Program-made: the position numbers and the translations under genes
The notes under the pieces: generated by a model
Databases searched by the model: none
Seen by the model: only the letters and a program-made list of their open reading frames with translations
What the model was told of the DNA's origin: nothing
In this document: positions 3,275-59,224 of the stretch, one piece after another
Layout of the letters: each line of letters begins with the position of its first letter
Position numbering within the stretch: position 1 is the first letter of the stretch
Source of the DNA: Coniochaeta sp. PMI_546
Lineage: Eukaryota > Ascomycota > Sordariomycetes > Coniochaetales > Coniochaetaceae
DNA: 64,000 nt
Direction of reading: 5' to 3'
Assembly: GCA_021432605.1 (NCBI GenBank)
Contig: MU271149.1
Location: forward strand, 1,240,001-1,304,000

Positions 3275-4328
3275 ATGGCCCCAACCGTCTTACCGGAGTC
3301 GGGAAACCCGCTGTGAGTAGCCCTACCCTTCAAAACTTGCTCACGTATTTGGAATATGACTGCTCTATCATCTAAGCCACTCCCACGCGTCATAGTTGGT
3401 TCTTGGAGATCGCTTGGTGAAGACGGAGCGGAGCGCTCAACACCCCCGATCCGTTGCGAACATACTGTTCAGGACTAGTGGCTAACAATTCTGTCTTGAA
3501 GCGTATTCTTTGATATCACACTCGGAGGTAAGTGAAGCCGGATCTTGAAGTTATTCACTTGTCATGCAACCTTCCATTCAACTGAGGTCTCTCACTGAGT
3601 GGTGAGAGGCTCCAGTCAGACCTTTGCCCACGATCACAACGCGACAATCAGGCTTACACATCAGCCCCTGACAAGCAAGCACCATTTCCCCCGAGCACTC
3701 GGTTGCTCCCTTGATCATCAGCAAAACTCTGTGTTGACCATATCGATATGCAGGTGAGCCCCTGGGCAGAATTACCTTCGAGCTCTTCAAAGATGTCGTG
3801 CCCAGGACCGCCGAGAACTTCAGACAGTTCTGCACGGGCGAGTACAAGTCGCAACGTCGGCCGCAGGGCTACAAGGGGTCCAAGTTTCACAGGATAGTAT
3901 GTCTTTCCTACTTCCCATCTTCCCCACTCCCCATCTATCCGCCCTTCCTTCCTCCCCGACTAGATCCGGCCGCTCATACAGAACGCCAGATCCCTTCCTT
4001 CATGTGCCAAGGCGGCGACTTCCTCCACGGCGACGGCACGGGCTCGACCTGCATCTACGGCACCAAGTCCTTCGCCGACGAGAACTTCAACCTCAAGCAC
4101 GACCGGCCCGGTCTCCTGTCCATGGCCAACGCCGGGCCCAACACCAACGGGTCGCAGTTCTTCATCACCACCGTCCCCACGCCGTTTCTGGACGGGAAGC
4201 ATGTCGTCTTCGGAAAGGTGGTGGACGGCATGGACGTCGTGAAGAAGATGGAGGCTACCAAGACGGGCTACCGGGGAAAGGACGTGCCGAACTTGGATGT
4301 TGTTATTGCGCAGTGTGGTGAGCTGTAA
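3275..4328 (+). CDS. cyp3: Peptidyl-prolyl cis-trans isomerase H (cyclophilin H)
   Basis: Single-domain cyclophilin of 181 residues. Members isomerise Xaa-Pro bonds; the H class binds the U4/U6 snRNP protein Prp4 in the spliceosome. I read four exons: 3275-3312, 3502-3527, 3754-3896 and 3990-4328. The joins restore [13 protein letters not shown] and [15 protein letters not shown]. Active-site residues are present: the Arg of FHR, the Gln of QGGDF and the Phe residues of QFFIT. The short N-terminus before VFFD and the ending VVIAQCGEL resemble the H class more than CypA. The position that is Trp121 in human CypA is Phe here (TPFLDGKH), so cyclosporin binding may be weak. The first ATG lies just after an A-run and is followed by a gtgagt donor. 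Length matches the family, about 180 residues. The subfamily call rests on overall resemblance. Confidence 0.93.
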
Positions 4329-5055
4329 TGGTTCAGATGGAGGCCTAAGTCGGAAAGTGCGTCGGCGTCAAGGACCTAGAAAATGGCGGTACTGATTTGG
4401 GTTAGATAAATGGAGACTCACCCGGTTCTCTGCGGGTTGAAGCTTATGGCCAGTAACTTCCACCTCGTGTGTCACGGAGGAGTGTGAGTAGACTGAGATG
4501 AATGCGAGCGTCGAATATGGCATGGTTTGCAGAGTCAAGTGGACGAGGCTAGCTACAGAGGATTTGGTACGCAATCAATATTCCTGAGGCTACCATGATC
4601 CCCAAGGAATATTTGAGACATCAGGTTCTTTAGACCCATGCTGTGGCAAAAACATATTATTATATCTACCGGTATGCCTCGAAATCAACATTTGTCACGT
4701 CATATCACAGAACAGAGGTTCAAGTAGGAGTAAATCCATTTTATTTATAAAATTCAATAACGCCAGCCACTCGGGCAATCGCAGAGCCATCGACATCCAG
4801 TCGTATGTATGCCCAGGGAATACCACAGGTCCCTATCCCTATGAACGCATCCACGTCCATCTCCCGTGGGAAGAAGAAAAGAAGAGAAGCAATCCTAGCA
4901 AACCGATGGTATTTGCCATTTCCAACTCCAAGAGTGATGCAACCGGGTATCTCAAAAGAAACCATGCCTTCTCCCTGATGTATGTACACCGCGAACTGGT
5001 TGATGACTTTCCGAGAGTAGCGAAATGCCCACATCATGTACAGATCCACGGCTCA
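4329..5055. other. Convergent 3' intergenic region
   Basis: Lies between the ends of the cyclophilin gene (+) and the DUF7492-type gene (-). I see no gene; it should hold the two 3' UTRs. The part near 5056 encodes the His-rich extension described separately. Confidence 0.6.
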
Positions 5056-5136
5056 TCAGGCATGATGATGAACGTGATGGTGCGCATGGTGGTGCACATG
5101 CTGATGAGCGTGATGATGAACGTGACCCAACGCCCG
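5056..5136 (-). other. His-rich in-frame extension behind the TAG stop of the DUF7492 gene
   Basis: Directly after the TAG stop (5137-5139, minus strand) the same frame stays open for 26 codons to a TGA at 5056-5058. Fifteen of those 26 codons are His, arranged as repeated HHH blocks separated by Ala, Val or Gln. The stop is followed by CGG, the triplet known from type II readthrough contexts, although those are best documented after UGA. No convincing intron would remove the stop. It could be a readthrough tail or the former C-terminus of a recently shortened protein. Confidence 0.6.
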
Positions 5137-6630
5137 CTAAGCGTGTCCACGACCGAATCCCCACTGGCCAGCCGCCCGACGACCCTTCTTGGCGGCCGTC
5201 GGTTTCGCGTCCTTGAGGAAGCCGGTCACGGTCGGGGAGCCCGAGCTGCCCTGCGATCCGGCGCTTGACGTCGAGATCGAGGCGGCCGCGGATCCGGACG
5301 GCAAAGACGAGGGCGATCGGCTGATTGTTGAGGTCACGGTGGTGCTGTAGGCGACGACTGTCTTGGTGACTATCGAAGAGGCCGTAGCTACCCCGGGGTT
5401 TGCAGAGGCAGTGCTAGGGTAGATGGTGACGGTCGTGACAGTGGTGCTGTCGTACACCGTTGTTGTCTTCACGCGCGCGCCACGGTCGGTACCTGTGGGC
5501 CTCGTAGCCGTTGTAACAGTGACGCCGCCGTATGTTGTTGTGGTCTTGACGCGGCCACCGCCGGCACTGCTGCTACTGGCCTGGGATGAGACTGAACTCG
5601 CCGAAGAGTTGTTTTTGCTACCAACATCGATCAAAGCCGAGACGTCCACAATGAACATGTTCTTAACCTGTTCTTGAATGGCCGCCTTGTTCAGATCGGT
5701 CTCGGTCACCACAAAAGTTTGGCGTGATCCGCCGCCGCCCTTGGTGCATGTAGGCCCTTTGACTTCGCCGAGAATATCGTCGCACGGGTCGACGACGTCG
5801 ATGTCTATGACCGTTGTATAGAGCTCAGGGATCTTCACTTTCGCTCCATTCTCGCCAGGGGCAGCTCCTGGGGCTGATGACGGAGGGACTGTGACATTGG
5901 CTCGATCCATCGTTGGCCAATCCCAGACCCAGATCAGGGTGTACGGCTTCCCAGCAGGGAGATCGACAGGAAGAGCGAGGTCGTTCTGGCACCACAGGTT
6001 GTCGCCCATGGGCTGCTCAGTGGCCTTGGGGTACTTCTGTCGACGCTGCGTGGCGATCTCCTGAGTGTTGTCCTGGTAGCAGCGGCCATCGTCGAAGTTC
6101 CGAGTTGCCAGAAGCTTTCCCTTGCTGTCACCACCAGTACCCTTCGCGTTCCACTGATAATGAATATCGAGCAGATTCGCGTCCGTGCTCAAGCTCGGGG
6201 TACCGTATATATACACCGTTCCCCGATTGAGTGTCTTGTTCACCTGGGCATTCGGAAGGGTTGTGTGGCCGTTTTCCTGGTATTGGAGAACGATCATATC
6301 CCCCGGGGCCGCCTTTAGAGGAGGGTTCGCTGTTGTGTAGTTGGAAGTACGTTGAGCAGGATGCGCGATCTTGTCATCTGGACGGATTACCTTGTCCACG
6401 GGGCCGTTCGGTGGAATCAGATAGATGTTGGCGTTATCGAAGTAGCCGGGCGCACCTCTGGGCCAGAAACCACGCGGGAAGCCCTCGGCGCCGATGGTGG
6501 TCCCGTTGGGTGCAACACGCAAAAGGCGCTCAACGCTGGTATGGGCACCAGCGGGTAGCGCTGACCAAAGAAGGACCCAGAACAAGCTTACGAAGCCCCA
6601 CGTGTGCCATCCGGGGCGTGTTTTAGCCAT
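5137..6630 (-). CDS. Secreted DUF7492-type, LPMO-like protein with Thr/Ser-rich tail
   Basis: Single-exon protein of 497 residues. Residues 1-29 form a signal peptide ending PAGA, and the mature chain would start with His30 (HTSVERLLRVAPNG), a pattern I associate with the fungal DUF7492 family. A second candidate metal ligand is His122 in ENGHTTLP. An N-terminal His plus an internal His resembles the copper histidine brace of lytic polysaccharide monooxygenases; activity is inferred, not shown. The globular part runs to about residue 310. It is followed by a Ser/Thr-rich linker with three diverged repeats around VKTTTTY, VKTTTVY and TKTVVAY, typical of O-glycosylated wall or secreted proteins. 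I chose the Met at 6630 because it gives a clean signal peptide; an upstream in-frame Met at 6678 would add 16 residues. See the His-rich extension after the stop. Confidence 0.8.
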   Translation of the reverse strand: MAKTRPGWHTWGFVSLFWVLLWSALPAGAHTSVERLLRVAPNGTTIGAEGFPRGFWPRGAPGYFDNANIYLIPPNGPVDKVIRPDDKIAHPAQRTSNYTTANPPLKAAPGDMIVLQYQENGHTTLPNAQVNKTLNRGTVYIYGTPSLSTDANLLDIHYQWNAKGTGGDSKGKLLATRNFDDGRCYQDNTQEIATQRRQKYPKATEQPMGDNLWCQNDLALPVDLPAGKPYTLIWVWDWPTMDRANVTVPPSSAPGAAPGENGAKVKIPELYTTVIDIDVVDPCDDILGEVKGPTCTKGGGGSRQTFVVTETDLNKAAIQEQVKNMFIVDVSALIDVGSKNNSSASSVSSQASSSSAGGGRVKTTTTYGGVTVTTATRPTGTDRGARVKTTTVYDSTTVTTVTIYPSTASANPGVATASSIVTKTVVAYSTTVTSTISRSPSSLPSGSAAASISTSSAGSQGSSGSPTVTGFLKDAKPTAAKKGRRAAGQWGFGRGHA

Positions 6631-14543: not shown

Positions 14544-17336
14544 TCATGCCTCATCTTCATCCCCAGTGTCTCCAATATTGACCCTCTGCCTGCCTCTCCC
14601 TGTGAGTTGTTGCAATGTGACCTTGTTGACCTGTCCGCCTATCTTCTTCTGCATTTTAGCGATCTCCTCCTCAGCATCAATAGCCTCGGCCTCAGCAAAG
14701 TCGAGTACAAGTTTTCGACCCAGCAGGTGGGTATCCTTGAGAGCATTAAGAGCGTTTTCGGCCTCGCGCGGCGTAGTGAACTCCGCAAAGGCAAAGCCTC
14801 GCGATGTGGAGTTGAACTTTTTAGGCACACGAACTGAACGGAGCTGGCCATAAGTACCAAAAAGCGCACGGACATCCTTCTTGGACGCCTCGAACGGGAG
14901 GTTCTTGACGACGATCTTCGTCCTTTGTCCGGCGGCTTTCTTGGCAACGTCCTCCCGTCTGCGTTCCTCCGCTGCATCGAGGCCCTTGTGGGAGGCCTTG
15001 ACAGAGAGGACGTGCCCATCTAGTACGTAACCATCCATGACCTTGAGAGCGGCTTGGGCTTGCTCTTTTGAGCGGAATTCCACAAAACCGAAGCCCATGC
15101 TGAGGATTTGTCCCGGCTTCTTGGGATCGACCTTGGTCTTCACCCGAGCTGACACGAAACCATCAAGGGGTCTGAATGTCTCTGCGAGTTGCTCAGTAGT
15201 CGTCTTGAAGTCGAGGTTCTTCACGAAGAGTGACGAAGTCTCAAGCCGAAGATCTGTCTCGTCATCGCGTTCCAGTAGCTCAGTAACCGACACCTTCTGG
15301 ACACCGGCGGGGCGATCATCCTTAGCGGATGGCAGAGTGGATTCTGTGAAGAGATTCTTGGGCGCCTTCTCCAAGAAGAGAACCGAGTTCTCGATGCGCC
15401 GATATGCCAACCTCGCAAAGGCCGTCTTAGCGTGGGCCGGCTGCACGAACTGTACAATAGCAATTGTCCCGCTCGGGGGCATTAGGACTCGCAACACGGT
15501 CCCAAACTCTTCAAACATCTTCCTGAGTTCTTCAATGTTAGTCCCGAAAGGGAAGTTCTTGACCAGGATAGCAGTATCGCCCCTCTGGTGAGACCTGAAG
15601 GCATTGAGGTCGACGCCATTGGCGGCGAAGTAAGCCTTAGTCTCTTGAATAATTGAAGTCTCAGCTATCGCTTGTCTCACTGCCGCGTCGGCGGAGGTAG
15701 GATCAAGCAGTTCTGACTTGGAGACGCCGAGGCGATCCGCCACCGACGCGTTGACCGCGTCCTGGTTCATGTAGAGAGAATTCCAGTTGAATGTGTTTGA
15801 CGCCGCCTCCGCCTTCTTTCGGATGAGATTCTGCTTCTTGAGGGGCAATTTTGAAATTGCGAACTCGTCAAGTTGATTCTCCCTTTTATGGGCTGCAGGA
15901 AGCACGTGCATAATCCGACCTTGAAAAGTTGTACCATCTGCTTGTTGGAATGCCATGAGAGCAGCAGATGGGTCTTCATAGAGCACCAACGCGTAGCCCT
16001 TGCTCTTACCTTGGCTGTCAACTGGGAGATGGACCTGCAAGCTGTATTAGCAGATATTACAGAGCAAATGTTTATGTTCTCGTGCAACAATTCAAAGTCT
16101 TGTCCAAAGTTCAGAAAACTCGAAGCATCTACTAAAATACTGAGCCCAAGTTCGCATCATTTACCAACTGTGGGTATAAGATGTCCCTATCATGGATTCA
16201 TCATGTTGACAAGGCGCAAGCCAGCTGGAAGGGAGAAATTACGATGACGTTGTTTACATACCTCTTCGATGGCGCCGAACTTTTCGAAACGCGTTCTCAG
16301 GTTGTCTTCTGTGGCAGTGTATGGAAGGTTCCTGACGAACAATCGTGCGGTTTTCTGAATCAGAGTCTCGGCCGTGTCTCCATCCTCTGGCTCCGCCGGC
16401 TCTTCCGGGTGGTCAACATCGATGTCTTGGACGGGTTGATCCTCTTCTGTGCTCGGCCCGGCGGTGGTTGGAATTTGCAGGGGGGCGCCACCCACGACAG
16501 GAGCACTTCGAGCAACAAAACTGGGATCGTCCGGATCAACGAGGTCCAGGAGGCGATTCGTACGCGATCTTAACCAGTCATCGTCGGTCGCTCCGGTAGG
16601 GGGTGCTTCCTCCACCATTTCGGGAGTAGGAACTTCTGGCAGAGTTTCAGATTGGGGAAGCGGCATATTTTCGTCGTGTGCAACAACTGGCGCCTCCTTA
16701 GGTACCTCCTTGGGCCCCTTGGCGGGTATCTCCTCGTACTCGCCATCACTCTCATCTTCAACTGGCGGAGGTGCCATCTCTACGTCGCCAGACACGCCGA
16801 TGTCCTCGCGCAGCTTCTTGGAAGCATGCTTTGGGTCCATGACCTCCAGAAACTCTTGAAGCTTGGGGTCAGCCTCGTCTAGGTCATCTCGTTTCCGCTT
16901 CTTGAGGGCAGGGTCTTCGCTTGGTGGCGTGAGTGGTGCATGCTTCTCTCGAGTAGAAGGCTTGGTAGAGGCAGGAGTGGAGGCAGAGTTCGAGGTAGGA
17001 TGGATCTTTCTGACACTGGGCAGTTCCGGGTCGGTAATCTGGAATCGGTCAATTCTTGACATTCAGTGCATGAAACCAGTGTAAGCTGATACTCACAGGC
17101 CTGGCCACCTCGACCGCTATCCTCGACATGCGGATGTAGGAGCGGTTGAAGTATTTGACAGCTTTGGCCGCATCTTCGGGGGTCTTGTAACCGACATAAC
17201 CTATTCGCCGCTTGGGGATGAGTTTGATGTCCGTGATCTCTCGTCCTTTGCTTGAGAAGTGCTTGCGGAAGTCGACCTCGTTTATGTTTGGTGGCAGGTT
17301 CCTCACAAAGATGCGGGACGACTCTAATGACTCCAT
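14544..17336 (-). CDS. mrd1: Multiple RNA-binding domain protein Mrd1 (RBM19)
   Basis: 835-residue protein in three exons: 17336-17097, 17038-16262 and 16034-14544. All joins are phase 0. It carries five RNA recognition motifs: RRM1 about 8-80 (RIFVRNLPPNINEVDF), RRM2 about 310-390 (LFVRNLPYTATEDNL, interrupted by intron 2), RRM3 about 493-565 (ILVKNFPFGTNIEEL), RRM4 about 605-690 (LFVKNLDFKTTTEQL) and RRM5 about 710-790 (IVVKNLPFEASKKDV). An acidic and lysine-rich linker separates RRM1 and RRM2. This arrangement and length match Mrd1, the nucleolar factor of the 90S pre-ribosome needed for cleavage of pre-rRNA at A0-A2. The start is the Met that gives the family N-terminus MESLESSRIFVRN; the frame is open 27 codons further upstream. 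Divergent from the LC8 gene. Confidence 0.97.
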
Positions 17337-59098: not shown

Positions 59099-59217
59099 AC
59101 GTACGGCCATAGATGCTGGAAAACTCGGGATCCCGTCCGCTCTCCCATCGATAAGCCAGTAATCGTCAGACTAGTACTCGGGTGGGTGACCACCGGGGAA
59201 TCCCTGATGTTGTACGT
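59099..59217 (+). rRNA. 5S ribosomal RNA
   Basis: A 119-nt segment matches the fungal 5S rRNA. It starts ACGTACGGCCATAGATGC, contains AAACTCGGGATCCCGTCC and GGGTGGGTGACCACCGG, and ends AATCCCTGATGTTGTACGT. The two ends pair as helix I (ACGTAC with GTACGT), and a T-run follows directly, as needed for RNA polymerase III termination. Dispersed single 5S genes outside the rDNA repeat are the rule in filamentous ascomycetes. The copy looks complete, with the internal control region (GATAAGCCAGT onward) present. Confidence 0.95.
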
Positions 59218-59224
59218 TTTTGCA
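59218..59224 (+). terminator. Pol III T-run after 5S rRNA
   Basis: TTTTTGC directly follows the 3' end of the 5S gene; a run of five or six T on the sense strand is the usual RNA polymerase III stop signal. Confidence 0.7.

Follow-up and report, generated by a model that had tools for sequence, protein, structure and literature searches.

Among Sordariomycetes, for example in Fusarium and Neurospora, mRNA is edited from A to I by Tad2-Tad3 together with Ame1, as demonstrated in F. graminearum (PMC11156358, PMC11087585). The strongly preferred sites of this fungal editing have U at -1 and A or G at +1 and +3, and lie in hairpin loops (PMC11156358, PMC11087585, PMC4817773). Stop-loss editing of UAG to UGG (Trp) was reported for 323 genes of F. 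graminearum, and in N. crassa NCU03242, the orthologue of PUK1, UAGUGG is edited to UGGUGG at the site of the first PUK1 stop (PMC4817773). Replacement of the MV residues of Ame1 by KN, the residues of Leotiomycetes, led in F. graminearum to loss of function and to the same defects as deletion of ame1 (PMC11087585). In hyphae of this species rare editing was found outside the sexual stage, with two canonical stops among the sites (PMC11169179). The function of stop-loss events in sexual reproduction is called unreported in a 2024 review (PMC11156358), and when the literature was searched for C-terminal extension by stop-loss editing, no title among the matches listed dealt with the function of such editing. 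In type II ribosomal readthrough the stop is generally UGA with CGG or CUA directly behind it, and most cases have a 3' stem-loop (PMC3542737).

The locus described here lies in a window of 64,000 nucleotides from Coniochaeta sp. PMI_546, the window being the whole stretch of DNA that was analysed. With stop-loss editing in F. graminearum (PMC4817773) it shares a canonical UAG, a U at -1, a possible hairpin loop and, if edited, a C-terminal extension; the extension differs in its regular, His-rich make-up and its protein-like codon constraint, and editing is here a proposal. The likeness to PUK1 and NCU03242 (PMC4817773) is that of a UAG interrupting a frame under protein-like constraint, and a PUK1-like example occurs in the same genome. 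Whereas the stop of PUK1 cuts the kinase domain, the short form of the present protein retains its whole domain and is probably functional.

The DUF7492 gene and its product

The reading frame starts with an ATG at window position 6630 and ends at the TAG at 5139-5137 on the minus strand (Table 1). It was assigned by hmmscan of the 497-residue product to PF24320, DUF7492 (E 7.1e-85; 284.9 bits against a Pfam gathering cut-off of 27), and no other Pfam family had an E of up to 1. No further DUF7492 copy was found in the 33.5-Mb genome beyond this locus. Pattern searches for orthologues gave 46 matches among genome contigs of bacteria and archaea and seven among viral contigs, of which none was confirmed in either set, and a full-text literature search returned no paper naming DUF7492. 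Convergent with the gene, an ORF that looks cyclophilin-like by eye from its translation occupies window positions 3798-4328 on the plus strand.

By eye, the protein has a signal peptide that ends ...PAGA before His30; the domain follows, and after it come a linker rich in Ser/Thr and a basic C-terminus, KKGRRAAGQWGFGRGHA. The protein is likely secreted. His30, read by eye from the translation, is likely the N-terminal residue of the mature protein, as in LPMO-like proteins, and a His placed right behind a plausible signal peptide is compatible with an LPMO-like copper site. X325 proteins have a His at the mature N-terminus. The present protein resembles the X325/Bim1 group of LPMO-like copper proteins (X325 is named in PMC8615602) in being fungal and in this apparent N-terminal His, but it belongs to another Pfam family and its copper site is only putative. 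A PDB sequence search at E up to 1 returned just three lipase chains (E 0.24-0.41), over the linker, none of them significant, and a single-sequence (alignment-free) AlphaFold model had a mean pLDDT of 31, too low to show the fold. The label LPMO-like given to the gene in the initial annotation is thus only partly supported: His30 is compatible with it, but the Pfam family is DUF7492 and no LPMO family, and no significant PDB relative was found.

Table 1. Features of the DUF7492 locus (window coordinates)
Feature	Position	Strand	Basis
Tandem TGA TGA closing the extended frame	5053..5058	-	Sequence
In-frame tail of 26 codons with 15 His; five HHHX units, HQHV among them, X alternating Ala/Val	5059..5136	-	Sequence
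Predicted hairpin ACGC[UUAGCGG]GCGU, 4-bp stem, 7-nt loop	5130..5144	-	Structure prediction; depends on flank length
TAG stop, candidate UAG-to-UGG edit site, A at 5138	5137..5139	-	Sequence and published fungal editing preferences
ORF, 497 aa, intronless, ending in TAG	5137..6630	-	Translation
DUF7492 domain, protein residues 28-282	5785..6549	-	hmmscan and genome search coordinates
His30, putative first mature residue behind the signal peptide	6541..6543	-	Translation, by eye

A histidine tail behind the stop

The frame behind the TAG reads RALGHVHHHAHQHVHHHAHHHVHHHA (26 codons, 15 His) and is closed by the TGA at 5058-5056. The in-frame codons and His residues from TAG-CGG to TGA described in the initial annotation were confirmed, with the CGG at 5136-5134, as was its judgement that the tail is not a random 3' UTR, on the strength of His counts beyond chance and of a third-position bias among the HHHX units. 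When both strands of the window were divided into overlapping stretches of 26 codons, 127,844 in all, 25 contained nine or more His, and every one of these overlaps the His tail. The maximum reached in Markov simulations of orders 1, 2 and 3 was 6, 7 and 7 His, respectively (100,000 sequences per model). The DNA pattern for HHH[A/V]HHH[A/V] was matched twice in the 33.5-Mb genome, both times inside the tail.

Pairwise comparison of the five HHHX units gave differences at 0/40, 6/40 and 27/40 of the first, second and third codon positions. All six second-position differences fall in one column, that of the Ala/Val alternation, and only 3 of the 495 possible choices of four columns were as extreme in variation as the third positions. 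Variation among the units is almost confined to third codon positions, so the tail evolved as protein. Comparison of His codons with one another gave 15 third-position differences out of 26, which is near saturation, with CAC and CAT mixed almost at random. The codon-position pattern supports a selected protein extension over random UTR; the simplest reading is that of an old repeat whose amino acids are held by selection. This suggests that the tail has been translated over a long time, which does not date the TAG. Chance and a simple DNA repeat as origins of the tail are ruled out by the His counts together with the codon-position pattern. Antisense coding is ruled out as well, since the other two phases place most variation at first or second positions, and a plus-strand ORF over the tail (4906-5268) was set aside as being without other support.

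His-rich peptides bind Cu, Zn or Ni, and the HHHX units of this protein most likely do so too, by analogy with such peptides. By title, none of the papers found to contain HHHAHHH, HHHVHHH or HHHAHQH concerns this protein; the string HHHAHHH occurs in one on nickel binding to Hpn-like polypeptides (PMC8704837). Speculatively, and provided that the N-terminal His serves as a copper ligand, the tail might supply or hold copper, or act as a metal-mediated anchor for the protein.

The stop codon and possible traces of editing in the genome

The A of the candidate edit site is preceded by U at -1 and has G at both +1 and +3 (CUUAGCGG), in agreement with the stop-loss-editing preference (purine at +1 and +3). 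In the hairpin ACGC[UUAGCGG]GCGU the A would stand third in the loop behind a U, a placement resembling that of U33-A34 in the anticodon loop of a tRNA; most predicted structures add one or two further U-G pairs. Such anticodon-loop geometry (four Watson-Crick pairs, A third in a 7-nt loop) was found at 5 of the 1160 TAGs of the window, including that of the tail, and at 20 of the 1160 with G-U pairs allowed. With flanks of +/-30 nt, the span used for editing sites in PMC4817773, 1988 of 2000 sampled structures placed the A in a hairpin loop; a value of 0.99 is reached by 7.7% of the 1160 TAGs. Symmetric flanks of 12-40 nt gave a loop probability of 0.88-0.99, which fell to about 0.01 at +/-50 and +/-60 nt and rose again to 0.55-0.84 between +/-80 and 150 nt. 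The average of this probability over 100 flank pairs was 0.49; over 25 flank pairs the mean was 0.58, which 17.7% of 300 sampled TAGs equalled or exceeded, and in an off-centre window of 61 nt the UAG falls in a stem. The predicted hairpin depends on the flanks and gives no more than mild support to the TAG as a good editing substrate.

A kinase-domain search of the genome gave at least 141 matches (123 of 201 candidates scored), at least 21 of them with internal stops. Twenty of these 21 were inspected by eye (C2:2949390 was left out), and in 18 of the 20 the stops appeared to lie in introns or at match edges, L045 being the least clear. One match, an AGC/NDR-type kinase at G000:C2:1760874-1761062 (L036, L055), has an exonic in-frame TAG in CD*WSIG, followed by TGG. 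The closest solved kinase to the piece before the stop was CBK1, and the TAG is predicted in a hairpin loop at +/-30 nt (0.973). By sequence this stop matches the PUK1-type edited stop reported in N. crassa, and the gene is a putative PUK1 orthologue. Another kinase-like gene, at G000:C5:157435-157923 (L042), has a TGA inside an exon with no obvious intron and is possibly a pseudogene.

Three DUF726 (Ame1-family) loci were found in the genome. The one at G000:C11:79431-80548 (L011, L013) has MV, while the aligned copies on C7 and C2 have KN and LD. Counted from the catalytic Ser, the MV residues stand at -30/-29, a shift of one residue from the published spacing. Together, the DUF726 copy with MV, the residues of the editing type, and the in-frame UAG of PUK1 type are indirect evidence that the fungus edits stop codons. 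A piece of isocitrate lyase from the genome scored highest against PDB chain 5e9h (297 bits), followed by 5e9f and 5e9g (288) and by 1dqu (274); enzymes of Fusarium and Magnaporthe thus rank ahead of that of Aspergillus, in keeping with a Sordariomycete. DNA methylases were searched because the RID methyltransferase is another stop-edited gene in F. graminearum (PMC11156358); none of the four matches has an internal stop, and the search gave no second corrected stop. A mating-type alpha-box search of the genome returned no match, an empty result that does not imply absence.

Explanations of the interrupted frame

We infer that the UAG of this gene is edited from A to I to UGG, so that a secreted DUF7492 protein would exist in two forms with different C-termini, and put the probability of this reading at roughly 0.5. 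The confidence expressed in this and all other readings is a matter of judgement and was not computed. Editing was absent from the proposals of the initial annotation, which had offered either programmed readthrough or a recent nonsense change. The second of these, a change of the CAG-to-TAG or TGG-to-TAG type at the level of the species or isolate, would have severed an ancestral His tail and left it as a fresh remnant. Either change would take one transition, the loss of 26 C-terminal residues would likely be tolerated, and an intact tail is what a very recent event predicts. Against this, the tail has no decay save one Gln among the His positions, and a PUK1-like stop of the edited type is present in the same genome; moreover, judging from the published preferences, UAG would be the one stop of the three whose one-step edit to sense has the preferred U before the A. 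We regard a recent nonsense change as rather unlikely. The PUK1-like stop bears on editing in the lineage and not on the DUF7492 site, a point that counts against the editing reading.

Readthrough of UAG-CGG would extend a small fraction of the protein in every tissue. A coding-like tail is equally its expected signature, and the CGG directly behind the stop is a type II element (PMC3542737). The type II context, however, is generally UGA followed by CGG or CUA, and the stop here is UAG; in the available type II table of PMC3542737 the entries are UGA-CGG, UGA-CUA, UAA-CGG or 'etc.', and none is written UAG-CGG. Nor does the RNA have the stem-loop about 8 nt 3' of the stop that is associated with type II sites, since the 84 nt downstream fold like shuffled sequences (-19.8 against a shuffle mean of -19.65 kcal/mol; z -0.06). 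Type II readthrough as raised in the initial annotation is therefore poorly supported, and this reading is improbable; on indirect evidence, editing fits this fungus better. That the codon at 5139-5137 is in truth a sense codon misread in sequencing or assembly draws support from the reliance on a single assembly, but no other stop interrupts the ORF over its 497 codons, and the tail reads through to a tandem stop of its own, so that we consider an error very improbable. A small intron taking out the TAG, suggested by the resemblance of GCTTAG|CGG (by eye) to a fungal 3' splice site, has the least to commend it: the stretch scanned, which reached 500 bases upstream and 90 downstream, contains just two consensus donors (GT[AG]NG), and no donor-acceptor pairing gives a frame-keeping intron of 40-300 bases that excises the TAG. 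An intron removing the region had been named in the initial annotation as fatal to its interpretation; on this consensus splice-site scan the intron is rejected.

Under the editing reading, the UAG would end translation at residue 497 in most tissue. Under editing conditions, that is, sexual development and possibly stress, the Tad2-Tad3 deaminase with Ame1 would turn the A of the UAG, presented in the anticodon-like hairpin, into inosine. UIG would be read as Trp, and the protein would gain Trp plus 26 residues ending in the (HHHA/V)n tail, most likely a ligand for Cu, Zn or Ni close to where the enzyme domain may have its copper site. A stronger form of the proposal, that the UAG is kept under selection and lets sexual-stage A-to-I editing toggle a His-rich metal-binding tail on a secreted copper-type enzyme, is put forward tentatively, as somewhat less probable than not. 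If true, the protein would carry a metal tag under developmental control, and stop-loss editing would have a case with a function. In the combination of a UAG with a regular, codon-constrained tail, the extension itself argues for function, and the question of what stop-loss editing does could be approached in one gene with a simple readout, metal binding.

Elsewhere in the window are a 5S rRNA gene (59099-59218, plus strand) and a C/D-box snoRNA of family Afu_335 (16109-16208, minus strand).
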